This document shows, piece by piece, positions 520 through 54,000 of a stretch of DNA of 64,000 bases. The stretch spans positions 21,532,257 through 21,596,256 of the forward strand of contig NC_052516.1 in NCBI RefSeq assembly GCF_014356525.2. The letters are read 5' to 3'. Position 1 is the stretch's first letter. Each line of letters begins with the position of its first letter. The notes beneath the pieces were generated by a model that was given only the letters and a program-made list of their open reading frames with translations, had not been told where the DNA came from and made no database searches. The DNA comes from Nilaparvata lugens (Eukaryota > Arthropoda > Insecta > Hemiptera > Delphacidae). The position numbers and the translations under genes were made by a program.

Positions 520-657
520 ACATCTTCAGACCAAGAAGGAAAGAAAGACAAAGAGAAGGCCCCCTCCTCTCCCCTATGACGGCACAAAGAAGGAACTCGA
601 AAACGGAGTCACTCAGAACGGAGTACAAAACGGACTCGACGATGACAAAGCTTTCAA
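520..657 (+). CDS. pum: pumilio internal coding exon (N-terminal region), with an apparent 1-bp frameshift
   Basis: Internal exon of a Pumilio-family post-transcriptional repressor, a cytoplasmic protein that binds UGUA-type elements in 3' UTRs. It starts after a pyrimidine-rich TTGTTTGCAG acceptor and ends at the GTGAGT donor at 658. From 520 in frame it reads SDQEGKKDKEKAPSSP and then hits a TGA at 577. The next frame over continues as YDGTKKELENGVTQNGVQN and ends LDDDKAF. The junction is the CCCC run at 571-574. Dropping one C gives one continuous peptide and changes the length from 138 to 137 nt. That leaves phase 2, exactly what the next exon needs (AA + T = Asn). From memory, human PUM1 has SDENDKGEKKNKGTFDG, then a short linker running into SRTPG, which matches this order. 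The frameshift is more likely an assembly or allelic indel than a pseudogene, because splice sites and downstream phase are intact. The exon's role is disordered linker, not the RNA-binding repeats. Confidence 0.75.
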
Positions 658-11151: not shown

Positions 11152-11500
11152 TCGTACTCCAGGCAGCCGCCAACCGTCACCCTCGGACGAGGATCTGACT
11201 AAGAACGGTGTGGGTCACCCAGTGGTAGTACTCGACCACCACTACGCGACACCGCCCCAGGGTGCCGGGGGGGCCGAGGGTGCTGCCGCCCCCTTTGAGG
11301 CGGCACCCCTGCACCACCATCATCAGCAGCATCACCACCACCCCCACCTGGACCCGAATGCCGCCTTCGACGCCTATCACCACCATCATGTGGCGGCAGC
11401 CGCGCCGCCCCCGCATCAACAGGCCAATGCCGCCTCTGCCGTATCTGCTGCCGCCCCCGCCAGCGACTCCATGCCGCCGCAGCAGTCCTTCGATGTTCAG
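11152..11500 (+). CDS. pum: pumilio coding exon with RTPGSRQPSPSDEDL motif and His/Ala-rich tract
   Basis: Second Pum exon, 349 nt. The acceptor is TTGTGTTTAG and the donor is CAG|GTAGGC at 11501. The first base completes an Asn codon from the previous exon, then 116 codons follow and the exon ends in phase 0. It opens with RTPGSRQPSPSDEDLTKNG, which corresponds to the SRTPG segment conserved between fly and vertebrate Pumilio. It continues through a Gly/Ala stretch, two His-rich runs (HHHHQQHHHHPH near residues 47-58 and HHHH near residue 72), an Ala/Pro-rich segment, and ends QQSFDVQ. The end is comparable to the FDYSGTQ exon end in human PUM1. The exon is strikingly GC-rich against an AT-rich intron background, as expected for real coding sequence. 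All of it is low-complexity N-terminal region, and the eight PUM repeats are not in the window. A LINE fragment begins only about 27 bp past the donor. Confidence 0.85.
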
Positions 11501-11526
11501 GTAGGCCGCTTACCTATTCGTTTCTA

Positions 11527-21755: not shown

Positions 21756-22133
21756 CTATAGTGAAGTCCACGTTATAATGGCAGTGTTTGATTATCAATG
21801 GTATTGCTATCCTTATCTATTATTCAACAAAGCGGATAGCGCTATCTCCTTCCCGCTTTGCTCTGTTGCCAGATCATTCTCTTAACAAACTATAATAATT
21901 AATGTATATTAATTAATTATTAATCATTAATTGACAAATTATTTCATTTTAATCATGAAAATTCATTATGAAGTTATTGAAAATATAATTTCTTGCCTAA
22001 TAAAATATAATTGATTATTTTATATCAATAAACCTGTATCAGCTACCGTCTATAGAAGGCATTGACAAGACAGAGGTCGGCAACGTTGTTCTCCTATATT
22101 TTTCCACTTCCATTATAACGTGAACCTCACTAT
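21756..22133. mobile_element. MITE family D copy
   Basis: CTATAGTGAAGTCCACGTTA on the left and TAACGTGAACCTCACTAT on the right match 15855-16075. The interior is longer and carries opposed GCTATCC / GGATAGC boxes and an ATTAATTAATTATTAAT-rich centre. Confidence 0.65.
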
Positions 22134-22358
22134 TTTTAGTATTACTGTTTCTAGAAGTAACAGTTGTATTCGGGTTGGATCCCAAAATGATTCCATTACA
22201 GTATACACATTCCAAATAGTTAGGATTATGAGATTTTTATAAATTAGAAGGAATAAGATTAGTAAACTTGGTCCACGATCATGACCTGCATTTTAATCTG
22301 GTTATTTGCATACGGTGGAGTACTGTACTATGGGATTCTTTGTTGTCTTCCTGGCTTA

Positions 22359-22361
<3 letters not shown>

Positions 22362-22402
<41 letters not shown>
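22362..22402 (+). repeat. (TC)20 microsatellite
   Basis: Perfect CT/TC run leading into the long pyrimidine tract. Confidence 0.9.
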
Positions 22403-22404
<2 letters not shown>

Positions 22405-22499
22405 ATCTATATCACTCTGTCTATGTTTCTCTTTCCTCTCTCTTTTCGCTCCTTCTCTGGCTGATTATGTGAAATTCCTTTCACTCCACGCTTGAATTG

Positions 22500-23850
22500 G
22501 CTGCCAAAATTCAACTCCAAAAACAATTGGGATGAACTGTTTGTTCATTCCCACTTTATTCTTCATTGCAAATCTTTTGTACCCTCTGCCTCTTCATTCT
22601 TTTCCATTTCTCTCTCATCTCCTTCTTCTTTATCCTTATCTCGATTCTTTCAACCATGATTACTTGATTTGTTATTTTTATGTCAGATGATGCATTTTTA
22701 AATATTGAATATTTTTCTCATTCATTGCATTATTTTTATTGTAATTAATCTTTTCTTCCTTTCACCAATTTTACTTTTCTTCTCTTCCTTTTTTCACTGC
22801 TTCACATTCTATCCTTTTCCTCCTCATTCAATCATTTCTCCATCATTTTCTTTCATCATATTTCTCTCATCATTTTTTCTCCATCTTTATTTTCATTCAA
22901 AATATTTTTGTTATTGCGTTATTGACATTGCAATATTCCTCTTTTTTCCAATTTTTTAATTTACCTCCTCTTGAACATATCTATTTCAGTTTTTCATCTT
23001 CTACATTTTTCTTTTTTTGACCATTCTTCATCTTCTTCCTTTTCTGATTCCTCCACTTATAAATTTACAACTTATTCTTTCTTCTCTTTTTTTTATTCTT
23101 CTCCTTTTCCATCTTCATCTTTCTTTTCTAGTTCTTGAGCTACTTCTCCCTCTTTCTCTTATTCATAATCTTTTTCTAGTTATTTCCCCTCTTCCTCTCA
23201 TACTTCATAATCTTCTACTTTTATGTAGTTGTTCATCCTCTTATTCCTCTTTTTCTTGCCATTCTTCCCATCCTTTCTACTTTTTCCTTTTTTTCTTTCT
23301 CTTCTTTTTCTCCCTCTTCTTCTTCTTCTACTTCTTCTTTTTCATCTTCATCTTTCTTTACTAGTTCTTGAGCTTCTTCTCCCTCTTTCACTTGTTCCCT
23401 CCATCATCTCCTTGTTCTAGTTATTTCCTCTCTTTCTTTTATACTTGATCCTCTTCTCCTTTTATTTAATTCATCATCCTCTTACTACTTATCTCTTGCC
23501 TTTCGTCTCATCCTTATAACTTTTTTCTTTCTCCACTTCTTCTTTTTCTCCTTCCTCTTTTTCTTCTTCTTACTTTCTCATTAGTATTTCTTCATTTTCT
23601 TAGTTTCTACTTCTTACTTTCTCCACTGTTTCTTATTTTCTCAGTTTCTCTTATTTTCCCTAGTACTCCATCTTATTCTTCCTTTTCTAGCTCTTCATAT
23701 TTTTTTTCTTCCCCACTCCTTCATCATCTTTCATTCTCCTTCCTTTGGTAGTTCTTCATATTCTCTTTTCTCTACTTTTTCCTCTTTCTTCATCCTTTTC
23801 TTAAATTTCTCCCTCTTCTTCTCTCTCCTACTTGTGTCAGTCACTTCTCA
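22500..23850 (+). repeat. 1.3-kb pyrimidine-rich tract with internal duplication
   Basis: Overwhelmingly C/T on the + strand. A unit of about 230 bp is repeated: TTCTTGAGCTACTTCTCCCT with CTAGTTATTTCC near 23130-23190 recurs near 23365-23425. Open frames here (Phe/Leu/Ser-only) are artefacts of composition. Confidence 0.7.
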
Positions 23851-24664
23851 CTCATCACCAGTGCACATCTCTCGGCACTCTGTTGCCTTCCTTGATACTG
23901 TAGTCAGTACTGTGAACTATGATCTTCATTTGTTGCTGCCATAGCTGTTGTTACATTACATACTTTGGCGTCCATTATCTTGTTGTCAGACTGTTTTTGC
24001 TCAACTGCCAACTAAAACTATTCGAGTCGAAATTATTCAGGTCAACTTTAACCTGTTGAAAATGATGTGTCGGAATGTAATTTGACAACTTGTACGCTAG
24101 AAATAAGGTGGCCGTCCTTCATTGTTTAGCACAGTTTAGTTATAGTTCAGTGTTTCTTAGTTGTAGCACAAAAAAAGAGAAACATATTGTTCCTCACTCC
24201 ACTGCTATTGGTATATGCCGGCTGATGACTTCGGCTAAGCCTAAATAACTTTTTTTTTACTTTGTCGAAAGAGAACATATCATGTTATTTTGAATTCATT
24301 TTTCAAACGAGGTGTTTTTGTGAATGAGTTTTCATTTTTTTTTGTATCATTTGAATTATGTTAGTAAAGTTCTATTCTATTGATATATGGTTAGTTATCT
24401 TAGTTATAGCTCAATGGTTCGTACTAGTCTCAGATAAATAGTTCGTGGGATTAGTTATATTTCAGTGGTAATTAGTTCAAATTCATAGTCAGTTGGACAT
24501 AAGTTTGATATTATTTATTCCTGTTCACTTGAATCCATCTTGAAAAATTAATTATATTCATCTCTCTTATGATTTCATTGTGGTAGAAATAATGAGTCAT
24601 GTTTGTTTTCATTGAATTTTACATTACATCACATTGTAGTGGAACTAGATACATCTAAGATACA

Positions 24665-32150: not shown

Positions 32151-33786
32151 CAAAATCTTTAGAATCCTTAGGCTATGATCTGAATGATCCTTATTTACTT
32201 AGAATATGTATTAAACATTTTTGAATTATCAGGACGGTTAGTCAGAAGCATCTAAAATTGAGTTCCTTTCCCGACAAAAACAATTCAAAATCGTAAAATT
32301 ATAGAAAACCATGAATTATTTCCAAAGACTATATTCAGTCTATGATGAAAAATACATGATTAGTTCTTCATCATCCCACGATCCCCTTTCTTCTTCCATC
32401 ACTTTTTATATTTTATTTTCATTTTACAGCATTTCAACGACATCTGGAATATGTAACAGTCAAAATTAATGTTCTGCATCTTCCTTCAAGTAGAAAATAT
32501 TTTGTTCTAATTCTTTTTTCGTGTTGTCACATTAGTATTAAGTTGTCCAGCATGTGTTGGACATTGTTCTTGTTTATAATATGCTCACCTTGTGTTCCTT
32601 GTTTATTTCAATGAATAGATTGAAATATTTAAAATAAAATATGTTATCAGGATCATAATTTCGGAAATTTTTCCCTTTTTTCAATAATCATCCAGGTCTA
32701 TTCTAATTCTGTGGTTGACTGTGATTTTTTTTATAGAAAACACTTGTATTTTTATTGACCCTTGACGTCTAGATAGTTATGTTCTCCGTTCTAATTTTTC
32801 AATAGTGGGTGGGCTGTTGGAAAACGTTAAAATATTGAAGAAATTTCTTTATCTTCTGATATAAATTTTTAAAACTACGTTCACTAATCAAGTCCATACT
32901 TGATAGAACAATAATATTTTTTGTTAATTCTTAAAAAAAACTTATTGAAATATTCAAAAATCATAATGTTGAAAAGTTGATAATGAACGTCTCTTGTAAA
33001 TTTTCTTAAATTCTGGAATGTAATTGCAATTATCTAATGAACAAACAAAATCGGTCTTACAATATTATTATTGTTACACTAAATACAATTTAAATAAAAA
33101 TATAAATCTCAGTACCCTTTTAAATTATTTTGTCACAAAATGTTTCCGACATTAATGTCATTTTAATGGCATTTATATTAAATGTTATTTATATTAAAGA
33201 AGCCCTATAGAAAAAGAGATAAAATGATTGTATCTGATTTAAAATGTTGTATCAGTTATAATTTCATTGATCTGTGTTTCAAACACTGTCACCTCTATCT
33301 TATTTTAAATTACATTCTCAATTAAATTATAAATATACATTTATTTGGGAGTATCATTTATTACAGTACAGCAATCTCTTAGATTGCTTGTTATAGCTTG
33401 AATTATTGTTTGAATTCCAAAGAATATCCAACTTTTAACTCAATAATTAGTGAATCACCTAAAGATGTAACTGTATTAATTGACTTACAGTATATTAATC
33501 GACTGGAATCATTCAACTATGTGACAATTCTATGTAATTAACTAGTGAAAAACACACACATGAAAGTAGATTATTCAGGAATGAGGCATCCAATTATGTC
33601 GGTTTTCAATAATTATTGTGAATGGTTGGAAAACGTTGAACAACTCGTAATTAATTGGCCAATTAAGGAAAGTGGCTGTCAGTTCGATTTCTAAAATCTG
33701 GTCTGGTTCATTAGTACGATTCGCCGTCAAATTCGCCTAAACGATGCCAATCTAATTGCTCACATTTGAAAGCGAAGTTGATTTGA

Positions 33787-33876
33787 AAATAAACGTAAAT
33801 TTAAGGAAAGTGAAGCAAATAAACGCAAGTTTAAGGAAAGTGATGCAAATAAACGCAAGTTTAAGGAAAGTAAAGC
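33787..33876 (+). repeat. three 30-bp tandem repeats
   Basis: AAATAAACGCAAGTTTAAGG-AAAGTGATGC-type unit repeats three times with few changes. Confidence 0.85.
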
Positions 33877-34172
33877 CAATCTTAGTTATGTGAACAGTGA
33901 AATTAGTATTATTTGACGGTTTTTAACTGGAGTTTGATTTCCCTGATGAAAAATGGAATATTTTTGCATTGAATATAAATGCAAAATATTGTAGGTGGTG
34001 TATTAATTAATCAGTAGACATATTATTTTATCATTAGACATTGATTTATGATTGATGATATTGTGTATAGGCAACCTCCTTCAGCAAAAAATTAAGAAAA
34101 TATCTTGTTGATGATAATAATTATTATGAAAAATCTATGTACATGTAATTTCATTACTATCTGATCACTTGG

Positions 34173-34370
34173 CTTAAGCTGCGTTTAAACCAAAGTTATT
34201 AACATAATGTTAATATAACTTAATCCTTATAGATTCTATAAGATTGAACATAACTTATCATACTCATGATGCACATTATGTGTTTGTCAAGTTCCGTTCA
34301 ATCTAATAGAATCTATAAGGATTAAGTTATTAACAATTTGTTTATAACTTTGGTGTGAACGCAGCTTAAG
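34173..34370. mobile_element. MITE family H, TIR CTTAAGCTGCGTTTAAAC
   Basis: Ends CTTAAGCTGCGTTTAAACCA and TGGTGTGAACGCAGCTTAAG, then AACTTAATCCTTATAGATTC and its complement. About 198 bp. Ends 120 bp upstream of the ratchet site. Confidence 0.75.
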
Positions 34371-34480
34371 ATAGTTTAGCAATTTATTTTAAAAACTCCC
34401 AATAATCATACTCTGCCTATTCGGCTAATTGTGCTTATACAATATTTTCTGGATGTCTTTCATTAGTCTAATAATATTTC

Positions 34481-34500
34481 TTGTTTTTTACAGGTGAGTC
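34481..34500 (+). promoter_or_regulatory. pum: recursive (ratchet) splice site, zero-nucleotide exon
   Basis: The sequence is TTGTTTTTTACAG|GTGAGT: a strong pyrimidine tract and CAG acceptor fused directly to a strong GTGAGT donor, with the junction at 34493/34494. This is the known form of recursive splice sites used to remove long introns stepwise in flies. It sits about 23 kb into the intron after 11500. I scanned the window by eye for other AGGT junctions and found none with both a T-rich tract and a full donor. Use of the site in vivo is an inference. Confidence 0.65.
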
Positions 34501-34539
34501 TCATAGAAAATCTGCTACTTATTCTGTTTCTATCGAATT
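34494..34539 (+). other. possible 46-nt RS-exon or cryptic exon downstream of the ratchet site
   Basis: From the ratchet acceptor to a second good donor, GTAAGT, at 34540. It is 46 nt long, so inclusion would shift the Pum frame. In phase 0 it reads VSLIENLLLILFLSN, which resembles nothing in Pumilio. A short exon defined by a downstream donor is how vertebrate recursive-splice exons are recognised before the regenerated donor removes them. It could equally be a poison exon or noise. Confidence 0.35.
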
Positions 34540-34833
34540 GTAAGTACCTCATTACTCGAAAGATTTTTGTATCCAAGTATTATTACTAAATTATTACAAT
34601 ATAATTACAAGTATCATTCAGTATTATTACAAAATTTGTCAGGATTTCATATCTTGTTTCTTAACTCCAAATTAAACTAATGTAACTCCAATTATTCAAG
34701 GGGACTGATTCCACTTTCAAAAACTACTATTATAAATATTTATTCATTTATTATTTGATTGAATTATTATCAAATTCAAACAAAGTGTTTTTCCACTTGA
34801 AAGCTATATTAAAATACGATAGTATTAATAATA

Positions 34834-34862
34834 GTGAAAACAAGATGGATAACCAACAACGT
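34834..34862 (+). repeat. 29-bp block identical to 41755-41783
   Basis: GTGAAAACAAGATGGATAAC through CCAACAACGT is identical at both places. The upstream TACGATAGTATTAA also recurs at 7067, so this belongs to the same dispersed repeat as 6870 and 41585. Confidence 0.65.
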
Positions 34863-34989
34863 ATTATCAATAGTTATCAGCTTGTGGTTCATTTTCACAG
34901 CAAACTATTAGAAACTGATTTCAATGGATTTTCCTGTTAGTTGATTTATTTCGTCAGGAGCTGATTGTTGGAGATCTCAACTTGTGCTC

Positions 34990-36040
34990 TTTCTTACTGT
35001 AATCTCTATGATTGTAGTTCTCAATATCTTTGGATTTTTCCAGTACCATGTTATTTCCCATAATTTTGAAATACGAGGTTGTTATGAAAACAAAGTAGTA
35101 TTTGAAGGATTGTTGAAGAAAATTGTTTTTCTAATAATAAATAAGCTCGTGTTGCGCTGTTACACTTGTAAATTTTATTAACAATAAACTATTTTTATAG
35201 TTTTGTGTGGTACGCAAAGTGTGAAATTCAATTACATTTCATAACAAGCCGGCAGGTTATAGCCTACACTTTTTAATAATAGCACCTATTGTAACGCTTG
35301 TAAAATTGTAATAACACCCTATTATTGTGGGGAACATGAGCTGGGGAATTATTATGGGTTGGTGCAATGCTATCAGGTCCTGGATTATTAATTTTTCGAA
35401 AATTTGTGATTTGTTGAATATTTGAATACTGATTAATTCTGTATTTTAAATTTTTCTCTGCTGCTCGTGAACTACGCCTTGAAGCAATAATGGGCTGCCA
35501 TTAATTTATTATTCGTGTGAATTATTTATAATTTTTACACAGTAGCACTGATTGGGAGAGAAACTAAGGATAATCCTTGTACCATTTTTCTCCTAAATTT
35601 AGATAAAATTTTAAAAGTCCGAGCTAGGGTTATGGTTTCACTTTTCTGAAATTTCACTGAAAAAACAACATAAACTAAGATTTTTAAATTTTGATGGTTA
35701 AAAACAGAATAAAAAACAAAAATAACACACTCAAATCACCATTAATTGGAACATTTTTGCGTAATTTGACAAAATTTAGAGACAGAAAAAACACAACTCA
35801 CTATTCCATGATACACAATACACAAATCATTAAAATGGTTGGAGAAGGACCAACAGTCACAGAGTTATGGTTTCACATATTAGTTTCAATGTTATATAAA
35901 AATTCTCTCATCTTTTGGAACTAATAATTCAGTTTCTTATCGTTTAACAAATTCTCGCGACTTATGGTTCCCCTTTGCTCATAAACTTGAAAGTTTTAGG
36001 ACTTATTTCACGTTATTATTCTATCATTCCCTTCTTTTGA
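34990..36040. other. AT-rich intron, weak repeat
   Basis: 35570-35690 (TCCTTGTACCATTTTTCTCC, GTCCGAGCTAGGGTTA) is a diverged relative of the repeats at 38870 and 39672. Otherwise nothing seen. Confidence 0.4.
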
Positions 36041-36169
36041 CAATTCTCCTGTATTATTTCTATTTTCTTTTCCTTTCCTTCTTGATCTTCTTTTACCGCA
36101 TCTTTACTCTTCCCTTCTACTTCATCTTATCATTCTCCTCCTATTCACTTCTACATTTATTCATCCATG

Positions 36170-37060
36170 TCTAGGGCTTCCTCTTCCGTTTCTCCTTTTA
36201 TTGCTCTATCTGCTATAGGTTCTTGTTCTAATGCTCCTTCTTTTACTGCTTCTTCCACATTTTCCTTCCTTTTCTCTCTACTTTCTCACAATTTTCTTCC
36301 AGCTCCTCCTCCTCCTTCTCCTACTTATCCTCTTACTCTTTCACTGCTCCATCTTCCATTGGTTCTTCTTTAATGCTCCTTCTTTTACTGCTTCTCGCAC
36401 ATTTTCCTTCCTTTTTTCTCGACTTTTTCACAATCTTCTTCCTCCTCATCCTCCCCCTCCTCTTCTTCCTCCTCCCCCTCCTCTTCCTCTTTTACTGCTC
36501 CATCTTCTACTGGTTCTTGTTGTACTGCTTTTTCTTTTACTGATTCTTCCACATTTCCCTTTCTCTCTACTCTCTCACAATCTTTTTCCTCCTCCACCTC
36601 CGCCTCCTATTTATCCTCTTCCTATTTATCCTCTTCCTCTTTTACTGCTCCGTCTTCTATTGATTCTTCTTCCAATGCTCCTTCTCTTACTGCTTCTTCT
36701 TCCTCATTTTCCTCCCCTTCTCTCTACTTTCTTACTATCTTCTTCCTCCTCCTCCTCCTCCTACTTATCTTCTTCCTCTTTTACTGCTCCGTCTTCTATT
36801 GGTTCTTCTTCTAATGTTCCTTCTTTTACTGCTTCTTTCACATTTTCCTCCCCATTCTCTCTTCTTTCTCGCACTTCTAATTCCTCCTCCTCCTCCTCCT
36901 CCCCCCCTTCTCCTCCTCCTCCTCCTCCTCCTCCATCTTCTATTGGTTCTTCTTCTACTTCTTCTTCCACATTTTCCTCCCCATTTTCACTTCTTTGTCC
37001 TCGCTCCCCCCTCCTCCTCCTCCTCATTCTCTTCCCCTTTCTTCTCCATCAATCACTCTC
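36170..37060. repeat. pyrimidine minisatellite, about six units
   Basis: A unit of about 130-170 bp, recognisable by TTTTACTGCTCCATCTTCTA, TTGGTTCTTCTTCTAATG and CACATTTTCCTCC, repeats six times separated by (TCC)n runs. On the minus strand parts keep an EPxEDGAVKEEE frame; on the + strand a Ser/Pro-rich frame of 287 codons exists. Neither looks like a gene: frames change between units and no start, domain or splice context fits. Confidence 0.7.
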
Positions 37061-37229
37061 TCGTTCTTCAATTCTGACTGACACAAACCGTTGATCTGAC
37101 AAGTATAATACGATTGCCTTGTATGTTCTACACACCATATCAAGTGTTCTTTATTTCATGAGGTCGCCTCCCCTCCCCAACACACCGCACCCTCCTAATT
37201 TATCTGCCTACAGAATCTCAAGGCTGCTT

Positions 37230-46019: not shown

Positions 46020-46320
46020 AAGATAAGGCTCATAACCACTTCCTGCCCTCACGCTCTCTCACTCATTTATGGGGGAAGGGTTAAACCCTCTCTCTTTATC
46101 TTGCGAGGGGTTTTAAACCCCCTCTAGAGCGTAGTATCCCCACGGTGGACCCTTAAATAGCCCTACAATAGGCCCCACCCAGATTTAGGAGAGCCTTTCA
46201 ACTATGCAGTGTGTTTGGTGTCATTTAATACTGCAGTCCTAGGACAGTATGGGGCCGATAAGACTGTTTTAGGGGCCTCGGTGCGGGTTTATAGGGGGTT
46301 GATTGGTGCCTATCATACCA
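46020..46320. other. unusual GC-rich block
   Basis: Contains GGGTTAAACCCTCTCTC, GAGGGGTTTTAAACCCCCTC and CCCCACGGTGGACC, then GGCCCCACCC and ATGGGGCC. Far more GC than its surroundings and with local palindromes. I recognise no gene or element; likely an old repeat. Confidence 0.35.
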
Positions 46321-46369
46321 TCATATAATATATTGGTAAGGGGGTGGTGATGGTATGGATGGAGAAAGT

Positions 46370-47880
46370 GGATGAAGAGTAAGAGGACGAGATGAACGTG
46401 AGAAGAAGAAAAGCAGGAGAGGATGAGGAGAAGATGAGCGAGAGAGGAAGAGGTGAAGATAAACCAAAAATGAAGAGGAGTAGATGAAAGAGAGGATGAG
46501 GAAAAGATAAAAGAGAGAGGAAGAAGAAAAGATAAACTAGACAGGAAGAGGTGAAAATGAAAGAGGAAAGAAGAGTTTGAAAGAGGATAAGATAAGCAAG
46601 AAAGGAAGAGAAGATGATGAGCGGGAGAGGAAGAGGAGAATATAAGCGAGAGAGGAAGAGGATAAGTTGTACGACAGAGAAAAAGGAGAAGATAAGCGAG
46701 AAAGGAAGAGAAGATTATGAGCGAGAGAGGAAGAGGAGAAGATAAGAAAGTGAAGAAGATAAGCGATCGAGGAAGAGAAAGAAGAGAAAATAAGAAAGAG
46801 AAGAAAAAAAGCGATCGAGGAAGAGGAAGAGGGGAAAATAAGAAAAAGAAGAAAATAAACGATCGAGGAAGAGGAAGAGGAGAAGATAAGCGAGAGAGGA
46901 AGAGGATAAGATGTACGATAGAGAAAAAGGAGAAGATGAACGAGAGAGGAAGTGATGATGAGCGGTGGAGGGAGGGGAAGAGAATTGCATGTGAATAGAT
47001 ATTTGAGAAGAATAAGTTCATTTTGAAATAAATAGTAAATTAGAGTTCTAATAGAAGATTAAGGAAGGAGGTGGAGAACTTGAAGGCAATTGTGGGATGG
47101 GAAGAGGGAGAGAAGTGCATGTGAAAGGATGTGGAGAGAAGTGCATGTGAAAGGATGTGGGAAAGGAAATAGATAAGAAGGGATTGCAAAAATATTGACG
47201 AAGAAAAATTAGTAAGGAGGTTGAGTTTTGTTATTTTGTGAGGAAGTTGGAAAGTAGGGCAAAAGGATGAAGAAAGAAAACAGAATAATGAAGAAGATGA
47301 GGAAGGATGGAGAAACCTGTATAAAGAAAGATGGAGAAGGATGTAGAAAGGAGGGAGAATGAAGAAGTAGAAAGGAAGGAGAGGAAAGGAGTCAAAAAGG
47401 AGAGGAGGGAAGTAGAAAGGAAGAAGGGGGAAGAAAACAGGAACAGAGAATAGAAGATCAAGGAAGAAAGATGGGAAAGATGAGGAAGAGCAGAGAGATG
47501 ATGGAACAGGAAAAAAGAAAGCTGAAGAGATTAGGGCAATGGAAGAGGGAACTGTAGGATTAGTCGGAGATGAGATGTAGACATTGATGAAGGAAGATGC
47601 TAGAAGAAAACTATTGGATTGGTAGTCAGGTGGTGGACAAAGAAGGAGCAATGAAGAAAGAAGAGAAGAGGGAATGGATAGAAGAAAGGATAGAATTGAG
47701 AAACGATAAAGAAGAGGAAAATGAGAATTAAATTGTGAAACACTAGAAGTGTCGAAGAAGGAAAGAACCAAGATAAAATAATGTCGTGGAGAATACATTA
47801 GCAAAAAAACGAAATAAATAAGAAATAAGAAAATAAGTAGAGATCAATAAAAACAATTTTCAAAAAAGGAAAACAAGAAA
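46370..47880 (+). repeat. 1.5-kb purine tract (GA/GGA-rich)
   Basis: Almost pure A/G on the + strand, opposite in polarity to the pyrimidine tracts at 22.5, 36.2, 51.2 and 54 kb. Minisatellite-like: GCGAGAGAGGAAGAGG followed by AGATAAG recurs many times, and a longer block with TGTACGA near 46670 recurs near 46910. Long minus-strand frames (Ser/Leu/Phe) are artefacts. Confidence 0.75.
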
Positions 47881-48439
47881 GATGAATGCATTTGAGGAGA
47901 AAGATCAACAAAAGAATGAAAAAGAATATGAAGTAGAGGACTCACTATTTTAGGTGGCTCAGTTGAGATTTCGAAGGTTTAATGAACATTGGCTTTCATA
48001 CCATTTTATGTTCACATAAAATCTGAGAGAGTAGAGTACACACCCGAAGCTTATCGGTTCTCTATTTATTATCTTCATCGATGCTCAACTAACCTACTGG
48101 ATTTCATGGTGATTCCAGGTAGCTAAAGATTCCCAACAAGCTATGAACGGTTTAAAAGGGCGTCAAAGCCACATTTGTGGTGAAATTTCGAAGAGAATGT
48201 TTCTTCATATCAGGATTATTCATTGGTTCTAATTTTTGTTACTGTATTCATTGACCGAACGTAGTGAGCTTTATGTTTTAACTCCAATTTTCTTTTGTCG
48301 GTATGTAGCGCAATTACTGCCAAACGCGTTGATAGAATTCTATGAGATTTGGTCTACTGTTCACAGAACTACTAGTTTATTTAGCATACCAAAAATCCAT
48401 ACATTACAAAATAAAATCAATTGATAAGGAGTTGTCTAA

Positions 48440-50292: not shown

Positions 50293-51199
50293 ATGTCCAA
50301 CTGTATAAATAGTATGATGCTGCATGTTAAATAAAATATTAAATAACTGATCAATATTCCCTAATAATAAGTATAAGAACAAAACAATAATTGAAGAATT
50401 TAAATTCTCAACTATATCTTGCCAATTTTTCTTCGCCTTTGATACAAAATCTGTTTATGCCACTAACCTTCTCGATTTTGTTACTCCACAAATAAGTGTT
50501 CTCTTTACTCTCTTTTTCCAGTCTCTATTTCACTCCCTCCTTCCATCTCTCTTTCTCTTAAACTTTACTTATTTCTCCTCCTCTTTCCATATTCTTCCTC
50601 CTTTCTTACATATTCCATTTTTCTCATTGTTGCATTAAATTTCCCAACCTAACTAACATTAACATTTAATCAACTTTAACGAACCGTATTCGTAATTCTG
50701 AAATAATCAAACAATTCAGAATAATACTAGCATATTGCCATTTAAAAATAAAGCCTCATCCCTAATCCAATTTCAACCTTCAATAAAATTCTCTCCAACT
50801 CTAATAATCCTAGCATCACTCTTAATCTTGTTCCCTTACTCTCCTATTCTTTCACTCTTGTTCCCTTACCTCTTCTCTCACTCTGCCTTATACTCTTATT
50901 TACTCTTCTCTTCTCTTACTGTGCCTCATACTCCTTTGTAATCTTCTTCCCTTACTCTCTCCTCTTCTCTTACTCTGCCTCACGTCCAGCGTTAAGCAGC
51001 TTGCAACGGTCTCGGCTGCATGAAGTTAGATAAGAGAAAGTAGCAGGGTATCGTTGGACAGTTGACATTGTTGGAGGTAAATTGAAACTGTCCTCAACAG
51101 CCCAACAAACATCTAGTGGGGGGGGGTGGTTAAGAAAACCCCCTATTTAATCCTCTCCTCCTCCCCCCCCCCCCCGACAACAAGCCAAATAGAAAGGTA

Positions 51200-51955
51200 A
51201 ATGAAATCTTCATTCAACCTCATACTCGTTACTTATCCTCATCCTCCTCATATTCCTCTACCAACTGCTCTTCCCCAACTGATTTTACTGCTCTTTCTCC
51301 TTTCCTTATTTGTTGTTGCTCTTCTTCTCCTTTTTCTTCTCTTTCCTCTTCTTCTTCTTCTTCTCCTCACCCTCTCATTCCTCATCCAACTCCTCTAAAC
51401 TCTTTATATTCTCCTCCTCACCCTCCTCCTCTTCTTCCTACTACTTCTCCATCCAAAACTCCTCCTTCCCCTCCTCTTCCTATCACTCCACCTCCTCCTC
51501 CTCTTCTTCCTCCATCTTATTCATTCCAAACTCCTCCATACCTTCTATATTCTCCTCATCTCTCTCCTCTTATTCCTTCTCCAACTCCTCTAAACCCTTT
51601 ACAATATAATTCTCCTCATTTAATTGTACCTTACACTCTTCTCTTGTTGTTCGTCCTCCTCCTGCTTTCCCGTCCTTTCAATCCTTCTGTTCCTCTCAAT
51701 CCTTATCCCCTTCACACCATCCCTTTGCACTCTTCTCTTCCTTTTTTTCCTTCTTCTTCTTTCATCTAACCTTCCACACTCTTGACAAATTCTCCATCTC
51801 ACTCTTCTTTTCTTGTTTTTCCTCCTCGTCTTCCTACTCTTTTTCTTGATCTCCTCCTCCTCCTCCTCGACCTCTAAACCTTTTATAATTTCGTCAACCA
51901 ATTTTTCACCTCTCATTCTCATCTCTTTCTCGTTTATTCTCATCCTCTATCCTTT
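51200..51955 (+). repeat. pyrimidine-rich tract (CTT/CTC)
   Basis: C/T-dominated with dispersed CTCCTCCTCCTC runs, preceded by a poly-C run near 51164-51175. No gene frame. Confidence 0.7.
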
Positions 51956-51999
51956 CTCTATTATTATCCTCTATTTTGTACCTCTTTTCGATAGCATGA

Positions 52000-52700
52000 A
52001 GTTTCGTTAGCAGTAGGAAATAAAAATGAAGTTCATAACATAGTGATCTAGCATAATGATAAGTACCAATTAATGATAAAAAATTGTTGAATATGAACGA
52101 AAATAAGAAGAAAAAGGGAGCAAGAGAAAATATAAGCAGTAGAAAGAGAAAGAGGAGGATAAGAAAATCATTCTCTGATGGGGATCCTATTTTCCTCGAA
52201 GGGTCAAGGATCTCTCTTTTCATTCAATAATATATCTCATACCTTCAGACCCTTCTACCGTCTGTGGAGAAATGATTTGGGTGGTAGATATTGGAGTCAT
52301 CTCTCAGTCAGTCTGTCTCTCTCTTGGCAAGGGATGATTTGGTATCAAGTTAATTGGATCTCAAGCTGGTCGAGATTTCTTATTGATCTCCAGACTGGAA
52401 ATGTCCCACTGAGAGTAGGCGGGCTATCATCGTTCGGGATTATTAGTGGTTTTCATAAGATTTTTTTCATATAAGCTTCAAAATTAGCTCGATAATTTTC
52501 CCAAGTTGCCTTCATTATGTGCTTTATTTTTCCTTCATCGCTCAATGGAATTCCACAATGAGAAACTTGTACCTAGACTTTCATGCTTGTCTGCTACATT
52601 TATCAAGAGTCTGTTTCTGTAGGAATAATATAGACGAATTTTATTCCTTTTAATATAATTAAATTTATGTTTTATTTCAAGTGTTTTTTTTTTCTATTTT
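52000..52700. other. intron without recognised features
   Basis: Unique-looking; 52080-52160 is A/G-rich. Leads into the nuclear-receptor-like cluster and the 52848 microexon. Confidence 0.4.
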
Positions 52701-52730: not shown

Positions 52731-52847
52731 GTCCCAGAACCGACAAAAGCTATCTACTGATGTGATTCTCTATTCATTATTATTTGTCGAATTGCGAATT
52801 TCATGATGATTTTACATGAACTGATCTATTTTTCTTTTTTTTTACAG

Positions 52848-52874
52848 GTTGGTCAAAACATTCGATTTCAATTT
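52848..52874 (+). CDS. pum: candidate 27-nt in-frame microexon
   Basis: A long T-rich tract (CTTTTTTTTTACAG) precedes 27 nt that end at a strong GTGAGT donor (52875). The length is nine codons, and in the phase 0 required by the 11500 exon end it reads VGQNIRFQF with no stop. Inclusion would insert nine residues after FDVQ without changing frame. I do not recognise this peptide from known Pumilio proteins, so it may be an alternative microexon, a lineage-specific exon, or a chance pair of splice signals. Confidence 0.45.
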
Positions 52875-52879
52875 GTGAG

Positions 52880-54000
52880 TAACTAAATATCCATCATTCA
52901 CTAACATCTGTAGAATTTATTCACTAGAAATTGCAGTTTCATTCTTCAAATTTCCTTCTGCTAATTAGTTCTTCGGTCAATATTTGCAGTAGCTGAAATC
53001 CTCAGCTCTATTTATATAGCTTTAATTAGATATTTGAAATAATTATTCCACAGTAATTCATTCACACTGTAGCAAATACCAACATTCTTACTTACTTTAT
53101 CAGTTCGATATTAATTTCAAAATTGCAATTTCCAATTAGTTGAGTGGTTTTGGAGAGAATTCATGATTTTTCATTCCATATTTCATTAGTTATGAGACAA
53201 CCCTTATCAAGCAATCTGGCTTTCACTAAATTTTATCAGAATGATATTGGCAAAGGTGAAACTAATTTCAAATAATATTGAATCCAATATTAATATATTC
53301 AAATACCGTTTTATCTCCTGTTTATAAATCAATTGATAGTGCTGGCGAATAGCAGATTAACCTTATGTTTTTCTATAGATTGTCACTACTTCCCCAGCCA
53401 TTTGAAGTTGAATTCTATTTTCAACGCATAATTTAATATAATTTTTATTCTGTTATTGTTCATGCGTAGAATTTAATCTGGAATAGAAAGCAGTATCATT
53501 ATGAGTTCGTATTTTATTTTAACTGCAGCATGGACAATTAATCTCCACGTTTTATATTTGGTATAAATACTCTTTCATCTCCATCCACAATCACTCCGAT
53601 ATTTGATTTGATTTTAAACTTCTTTATTTTGCCATAAGTTTACATACATGAAAAATTTACAAAATAATCATATTAACCTTCAGAAACAATAAAGACCAAA
53701 GGTACCTGATATTATAAAGTATATACTAAGGAGTAATATAATATACTAATAGAGGTTCAAAATAATAATATACTAAAGATAGTACGTAGTACGATAAACG
53801 GTTCAAGTCACTGGTCACTGGTTCAAACTCAGCCCACGTTTGATATAATCTTGTCGGTCAATAAAAGACTCCAATAAATATTGCTGTTCTCCCAGGAGGA
53901 AAGATTTTTAATGAGTTAGAATTTATGAGTTGTTAACTGATCAAGGTCATAGATGTACAAACTAGTATTGAACCACAACTAAACTAACCTAGTTATGGTG
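52880..54000. other. intron downstream of the microexon, nothing recognised
   Basis: AT-rich, no exon. 52980-52995 retains TCAATATTTGCAGTAGCTGA, a fragment like the family A MITE arm. 53620-53660 (AACTTCTTTATTTTGCCATA) resembles a reversed retroelement tail. Confidence 0.4.

Follow-up and report, generated by a model that had tools for sequence, protein, structure and literature searches.

A Drosophila-type ratchet point, i.e., a zero-nucleotide recursive splice site, very probably lies at position 34493 of the 64,000-nucleotide stretch of Nilaparvata lugens DNA analysed here (the window), and it appears to be the first of a long series by which a 366-kb intron of the pumilio gene would be removed stepwise. 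The probability of this reading can be put at roughly 0.88. An earlier note on this DNA, which had taken the site for a recursive-splicing ratchet site, was very probably right in that interpretation, and the site is probably the first of a series. Recursive splicing is known from flies, and ratchet points were worked out in Drosophila. The intronic ratchet points in Ubx, kuz, Ten-m and other Drosophila genes share with the site described here a fused site of the (Y)nNCAG/GTRAGT type in a very long intron of a developmental gene and a strand-specific enrichment (PMC8605326, PMC6110457, PMC2773006). They differ in that the Drosophila sites are supported by RNA, whereas those of N. lugens are candidates proposed from sequence; furthermore, the insect is a hemipteran here, and two pairs of cassettes are mutual duplicates.

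The gene, its strand, the donor at 11500/11501 and the species group, a planthopper, had all been recognized correctly: the exons in the window are those of 'pumilio homolog 2 [Nilaparvata lugens]' (P0001), with which segments 521-657 and 11152-11500 align without gaps. The features at the 5' side of the intron are:

521..657, plus strand: 5' pumilio coding exon (3' part as matched), 100% identical to residues 284-328 of P0001, followed by a donor GT at 658.
11152..11500, plus strand: pumilio exon abutting the giant intron, corresponding to residues 329-445 of P0001 and identical except for the split first codon.
11501..11506, plus strand: donor of the giant intron, CAG/GTAGGC, 8.5 bits, U1 duplex -10.8 kcal/mol.

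The split codon, AA/T, has its donor side at 657 and its acceptor side at 11152, and the second exon ends in phase 0 (...GAT GTT CAG). The 116-residue exon piece alone had no match in the protein database, and a padded query did match; no relatives of the exon were found among prokaryotic contigs. P0001 reads FDVQ/QLFRT across the junction of the giant intron, and the QLFRT exon is absent from the window and from the next 200 kb downstream. A genome search with P0001 located the next exon at C13:21909323 (residue 442 of the query), C13 being the contig on which the window lies, and the DNA at the 3' border of the intron reads gcag/cagctgttcagaact, which places the first base of the exon at C13:21909335. 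As this is where the annotated protein continues, the intron comprises C13:21543757-21909334, i.e., 365,578 bp, or 11501 to 377078 in continued window coordinates, and the annotated protein splices 11500 straight to 377079.

The intron is thus far longer than the minimum of 41 kb given in the earlier note, which was the distance from the donor to 52848, the start of a plausible in-frame microexon of 27 nt. As the next constitutive exon, 52848-52874 can be rejected, since the annotated protein skips it and continues at C13:21909335. The same exon position rules out the mid-intron location that had been assumed for site 34493, which lies 22,993 bases (6.3%) into the intron, near its 5' end. A single ratchet site tends toward the middle of its intron, a tendency rather than a defining property (PMC6110457). 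Site 34493 does not follow it; if there are several sites in an intron, the first one is expected earlier than the middle. The pumilio gene has been named among genes with extremely large introns, with reference to UniGene and Burnette et al., 2005 (PMC2767349). Farther upstream in the N. lugens gene, the exon positions indicate a second very long intron of ~128 kb (C13:21385746-21514371). Residues ~150-283 of P0001, judged by eye, are unlike the conserved insect Pumilio segment (IAPSAKKLWGVEE... to ...VKMVEYVLGTSP) and appear out of frame; probably, this is a gene-model or assembly error.

At the site itself, the fused sequence TTGTTTTTTACAG/GTGAGT stands exactly where it had been reported, with the AG ending at 34493, and so does the second donor, GTAAGT, separated from the first by a stretch of 46 nt. 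The complete cassette consists of:

34468..34472, plus strand: branch point consensus CTAAT, with the putative branch point A at 34471, 22 nt before the junction.
34480..34493, plus strand: acceptor half of the ratchet point, CTTGTTTTTTACAG, 12.1 bits.
34494..34499, plus strand: donor half of the ratchet point, GTGAGT; regenerated CAG/GTGAGT, 12.1 bits, U1 duplex -12.3 kcal/mol.
34494..34539, plus strand: cryptic RS-exon of 46 nt, frame-shifting if included.
34540..34545, plus strand: donor of the RS-exon, less strong than that of the ratchet point: ATT/GTAAGT, 7.4 bits, U1 duplex -6.8 kcal/mol.

No AG is present between -20 and -3. Within the window, CTAAY in a wider interval precedes 102 of the 3395 AGs, and six acceptors on the plus strand are as good as the one at 34493. 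The regenerated donor also exceeds the original donor of the intron, as scored from the sequence (12.1 versus 8.5 bits). The earlier note had raised the possibility of a downstream RS-exon of the vertebrate type. A short cryptic exon can be delimited downstream of the junction, but this arrangement is not specific to vertebrates, as it is also found at fly ratchet points (PMC8605326). In flies, the cryptic RS-exons measure ~50 nt, are generally out of frame and have a weaker downstream donor (PMC8605326), and from the donor competition described there it follows that the ratchet donor should win and that no exon should be left. Vertebrate RS-exons likewise have a second donor after the ratchet donor, with exon definition expected and donor competition setting inclusion (PMC8605326). 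However, many mammalian RS-exons are expressed, some being kept by the exon junction complex (PMC8605326), whereas the annotated protein of N. lugens lacks the 46-nt exon, the donor of which is weaker than the ratchet donor.

Given this complete exon anatomy, 34494-34539 might alternatively be a cassette or poison exon, of which the acceptor and the 34540 donor are used, which is sometimes retained in the mRNA and in which the GTGAGT at the start is coincidental. The comparison of Pumilio proteins offers some support for this idea. Among 53 such proteins (from arthropods where named), the FDVQ...QLFR junction was found in 48, and it is free of inserts in 47 of them. The remaining one, 'isoform X4' of Cimex lectularius (P0010), carries the insert VSGDSKYDALLTNFLAK(Q) of 17-18 residues at the same junction. 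It begins with V-S, which, judged from the protein sequence alone, can be encoded by GTRAGT, and it may represent an RS-exon that is expressed from this intron in a second hemipteran, the bed bug. Against a cassette exon at 34494-34539 stands the regenerated donor, which is much stronger than the exon donor (12.1 versus 7.4 bits). Moreover, a coding cassette should keep the frame and be free of stops, and a length of 46 nt, not being divisible by three, shifts the frame; the exon is also missing from the one annotated N. lugens isoform compared. An early stop after its inclusion is not supported, as the following exon is open in all three frames. Finally, a cassette exon leaves the fused donor at 12 sites in the intron unaccounted for. 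Altogether, this explanation is improbable, and a ratchet point remains the preferred reading.

A further question is how easily such a sequence could arise by chance. Under the 20-position splice matrix used here, site 34493 reaches 20.8 bits, the top value of the 310 AGGT cores in the window (156 and 154 on the two strands). The runner-up is 52847 with 16.9 bits, and the best core on the minus strand scores 11.1. At this near-perfect strength, the site is thus unique in the window, as had been claimed. In the 52.5 kb of intron in the window, on one strand, 0.0033, 0.0033 and 0.0024 equally good sites are expected under Markov models of order 1-3, 0.0025-0.0043 when calculated from the observed halves if these are independent, and 0.0068 if they are re-paired. 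With looser consensus patterns, the number of matches in the window does not differ significantly from chance, being seven (up to 2 mismatches) versus 5.8 expected and, in another count, three versus 1.84 expected. What is unusual in the window is therefore the near-perfect match alone, and not the loose consensus matches. In the window, all Rfam families stayed below their gathering scores.

The intron was scanned over 252.5 kb of its 365,578 bp, i.e., the window part and 200 kb beyond the window. On the sense strand, 12 fused sites score 15 bits or higher, at 34493, 52847, 76256, 103032, 132566, 146302, 170336, 189140, 203876, 221418, 238656 and 253787, versus none on the antisense strand, where the best scores 14.8. 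With a threshold of at least 18 bits, the numbers are eight and zero. By chance, 2.4-2.8 sites and 0.23-0.30 sites, respectively, are expected on the sense strand. The density, ~3 sense sites of at least 18 bits per 100 kb versus 0 antisense, can be compared with that reported in Table 2 of PMC2773006 for large introns of fly, mosquito, bee and beetle, where RP sites occur at 0.48-2.2 per 100 kb on the sense and 0-0.12 on the complementary strand; the sense excess is of the same kind, although that table was made with a different matrix and threshold and without a hemipteran.

The anatomy seen at 34493 recurs along the series. The stretch from -20 to -3 is free of AG at all 12 sites, and a CTAAY branch point ~18-28 nt upstream is present at seven, versus 1.4% of AGs. 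Any position necessarily has some best donor 20-80 nt downstream; at all 12 sites it sits at 27-63 nt, it is GTRAGT at eight and GGTATGT at four, and its scores rank among the top 0.4-17% of those at random positions (P 2e-8 when combined by Fisher's method, and 9e-7 when one of each duplicated pair is counted). The regenerated ratchet donor is stronger than the downstream donor in every case (12/12), with a margin below 1 bit at 52847, 103032 and 170336. In 11 of the 12, inclusion of the cryptic exon would cause a frame shift or a stop, the exception being 52848-52874:

52821..52880, plus strand: weaker second candidate of the series, with the putative branch point CTGAT (A at 52824), an acceptor to 52847, the fused donor GTTGGT and an exon donor GTGAGT at 52875.

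The 27 nt enclosed here are in frame and encode VGQNIRFQF, which is not in P0001. The acceptor scores 14.5 bits, and since the ratchet donor and the exon donor are nearly equal (5.9 and 5.1 bits), the sequence could be either a weak ratchet point or a microexon that is used alternatively. Of the 12 sites, four score below 18 bits (52847, 103032, 132566 and 146302), and the weakest anatomy is found at 52847 and 103032, with the fused donors GTTGGT and GTTAGT. As 2.4-2.8 chance sites are expected at 15 bits, individual weak sites may be false members of the series, most of all 103032 and 52847, and by motif alone ~2-3 of the 12 could be due to chance. The sites are spaced 20.2 kb apart on average (range 13.7-29.5 kb). 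This spacing is even (CV 0.25, P 5e-6), but the evenness is given little weight, because the 15-bit threshold was set post hoc and the evenness hinges on the four weaker sites.

The pattern extends to the rest of the genome. The motif TTTTTTNCAGGTRAGT occurs 111 times, versus 14 times for the same pattern read backwards, 19 for a pattern with the donor half scrambled and 15 for the scrambled pattern read backwards, an excess of ~six-to-eightfold over these controls. Flanks were examined for 45 sites out of the 111, namely the first 30 in the list plus 15 picked for close pairing; 40 of these 45 are distinct. GTRAGT is found 25-75 nt downstream in 14 of the 40 (background 2.2%, P 1e-13), and CTAAY at ~18-28 nt in 10 (background 1.5%, P 4e-10). 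The first 30 in the list comprise 27 distinct sites, eight of which have the GTRAGT donor; therefore, the picking of pairs is not the source of the excess. Since 26 of the 40 lack GTRAGT at 25-75 nt and 30 lack CTAAY, not every motif match need be a ratchet point.

Among the 100 sites listed of the 111, adjacent sites within 100 kb are on the same strand in 13 of 13 pairs and those within 150 kb in 15 of 16, whereas sites more than 2 Mb apart share the strand in 24 of 58 pairs. A random scatter of 100 sites over 1 Gb would give ~1.5 pairs within 150 kb. Four of the 16 pairs are near-identical copies (L016/L017, L020/L021, L023/L024 and L059/L060), L020/L021 being the lone pair on opposite strands. 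Without these four, 10 of 10 pairs within 100 kb and 12 of 12 within 150 kb, again among the 100 listed, share the strand. Two of these 12 distinct pairs have site L062 in common, which is flanked on both sides by the 80%-alike L061 and L063. The cassettes L061 (C8:5903737) and L063 (C8:6012906) share a strand and are separated by 109 kb, and the distinct L062 lies between them; possibly, the three belong to a second ratchet series, in another gene. Overall, the genome carries, in many places, what looks like a recursive-splicing footprint.

These results also bear on the possibility that site 34493 is an unused, splice-like chance match in a very long, AT-rich intron. A giant genome must contain perfect matches, as the 14-19 occurrences of the control patterns of equal composition illustrate, and the looser consensus counts are at chance level. 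However, a chance match has to be set against an expectation of 0.002-0.007 sites in the window's part of the intron, the eight sense sites versus no antisense site at 18 bits or more, the genome-wide excess of the motif and the independent presence of a branch point and a second donor. Chance is thus a very improbable explanation. The interpretation as a ratchet point is supported by the other 11 fused sites within the 252.5 kb of intron that were read, as well as by the strand bias, the branch points, the downstream donors and the genome-wide pattern.

Two pairs of cassettes within the intron resemble each other. Those at 132566 and 146302, 13.7 kb apart, are 81% alike over -30 to +54 (L038:8530-8620 and L040 near 2302), and those at 189140 and 203876, 14.7 kb apart, are 80% alike over -37 to +58 (L044:5100-5200 and L045 near 9876). 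In both pairs, the match at the site extends from about the branch point to the second donor or slightly beyond it. Within 5 kb on each side, the first pair additionally has in common an inverted block and a roughly collinear block of 247 nt, 74% alike and ~2.5 kb upstream, which may be the remnant of a larger duplication, or a repeat; the second pair has one non-collinear block in common. The simplest reading of the pairs would be duplication within the intron combined with selection on the whole cassette. That the series consists merely of transposed copies carrying splice-like sequence, so that the enrichment stems from repeats and not from splicing, is extremely improbable: the near-identical genome sites and the two ~80%-alike pairs would fit, but a 201-base query spanning site 34493 has a single match in 1.085 Gb (in a search that skips very common words), so that a transposon origin of this site was rejected, the 189140 cassette has only two matches in the genome, i.e., itself and its partner in the same intron, 40 of the 45 examined genome sites are distinct, and the match at the site within each pair ends close to the borders of the cassette.

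A number of repeats and compositional features are present in the surroundings of site 34493:

34173..34370, no strand assigned: MITE-like foldback element, the ends of which form long inverted repeats (I1 and I2), without a second copy in the window.

This element lies ~120 bp upstream of the ratchet junction and is not part of the site. Also upstream, at 33784-33880, three tandem units with a spacing of 30 nt are 86% alike, and a stretch at ~34778-34868, 280 bases downstream of the site, has short repeat matches elsewhere in the window. Strand-asymmetric pyrimidine/purine tracts, containing degenerate CTT/CTC-type repeats and with a GC skew of ~+-0.5 to 0.6 in 2-kb windows, are found at 22000-24000, 36000-37100, 46200-47900 and 50900-52000. 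Such long tracts generate long spurious open frames.

The sequence, the intron borders, the strand-specific series in 252.5 kb, the cassette anatomy and the genome-wide enrichment are observed directly; the use of the sites by the spliceosome, their order and the competition between donors are what we infer from them. In the mechanism thus proposed, the intron would be removed in steps of ~14-30 kb. In the first step, the donor at 11501 would be joined to the acceptor at 34493 via the branch point A at 34471, presumably aided by exon definition, in which the donor at 34540 would act across the cryptic exon of 46 nt. This would create the junction CAG/GTGAGT, which, being stronger than both the original donor and the donor of the cryptic exon, should be spliced on to the next ratchet point, either 52847 or 76256. 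Ratcheting would continue to the coding exon at 377079 and leave zero extra nucleotides in the mRNA. A more far-reaching proposal combines this with the origin of the sites: a multi-step ratchet of at least 12, perhaps 15-18 stations if the remaining 113 kb are alike, ~20 kb apart, in which new stations arise by duplication of a ~90-nt cassette (branch point, acceptor/donor, cryptic exon and second donor), after which the whole cassette, including the interior of the exon, is under selection whilst the flanks decay. This combined proposal is tentative and falls a little short of even odds.

No report of recursive splicing in Nilaparvata or Hemiptera was found in the open-access literature, to which the search was confined. 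As far as that literature shows, the footprint in a hemipteran, the length of the series and the duplicated cassettes within one intron are new. N. lugens offers a genome in which such introns can be far longer than those of flies. Its footprint, in a hemipteran genome of 1.1 Gb, suggests that stepwise removal of giant introns also takes place in insects only distantly related to fruit flies, and that ratcheting is an old means of coping with such introns that is general among insects. From the pumilio sites, specific junction reads can be predicted for total RNA of N. lugens. With a dozen or more stations in one intron, some of them duplicates, the origin of ratchet points becomes directly testable, and cassette duplication, if true, would explain how introns can continue to grow in giant insect genomes.
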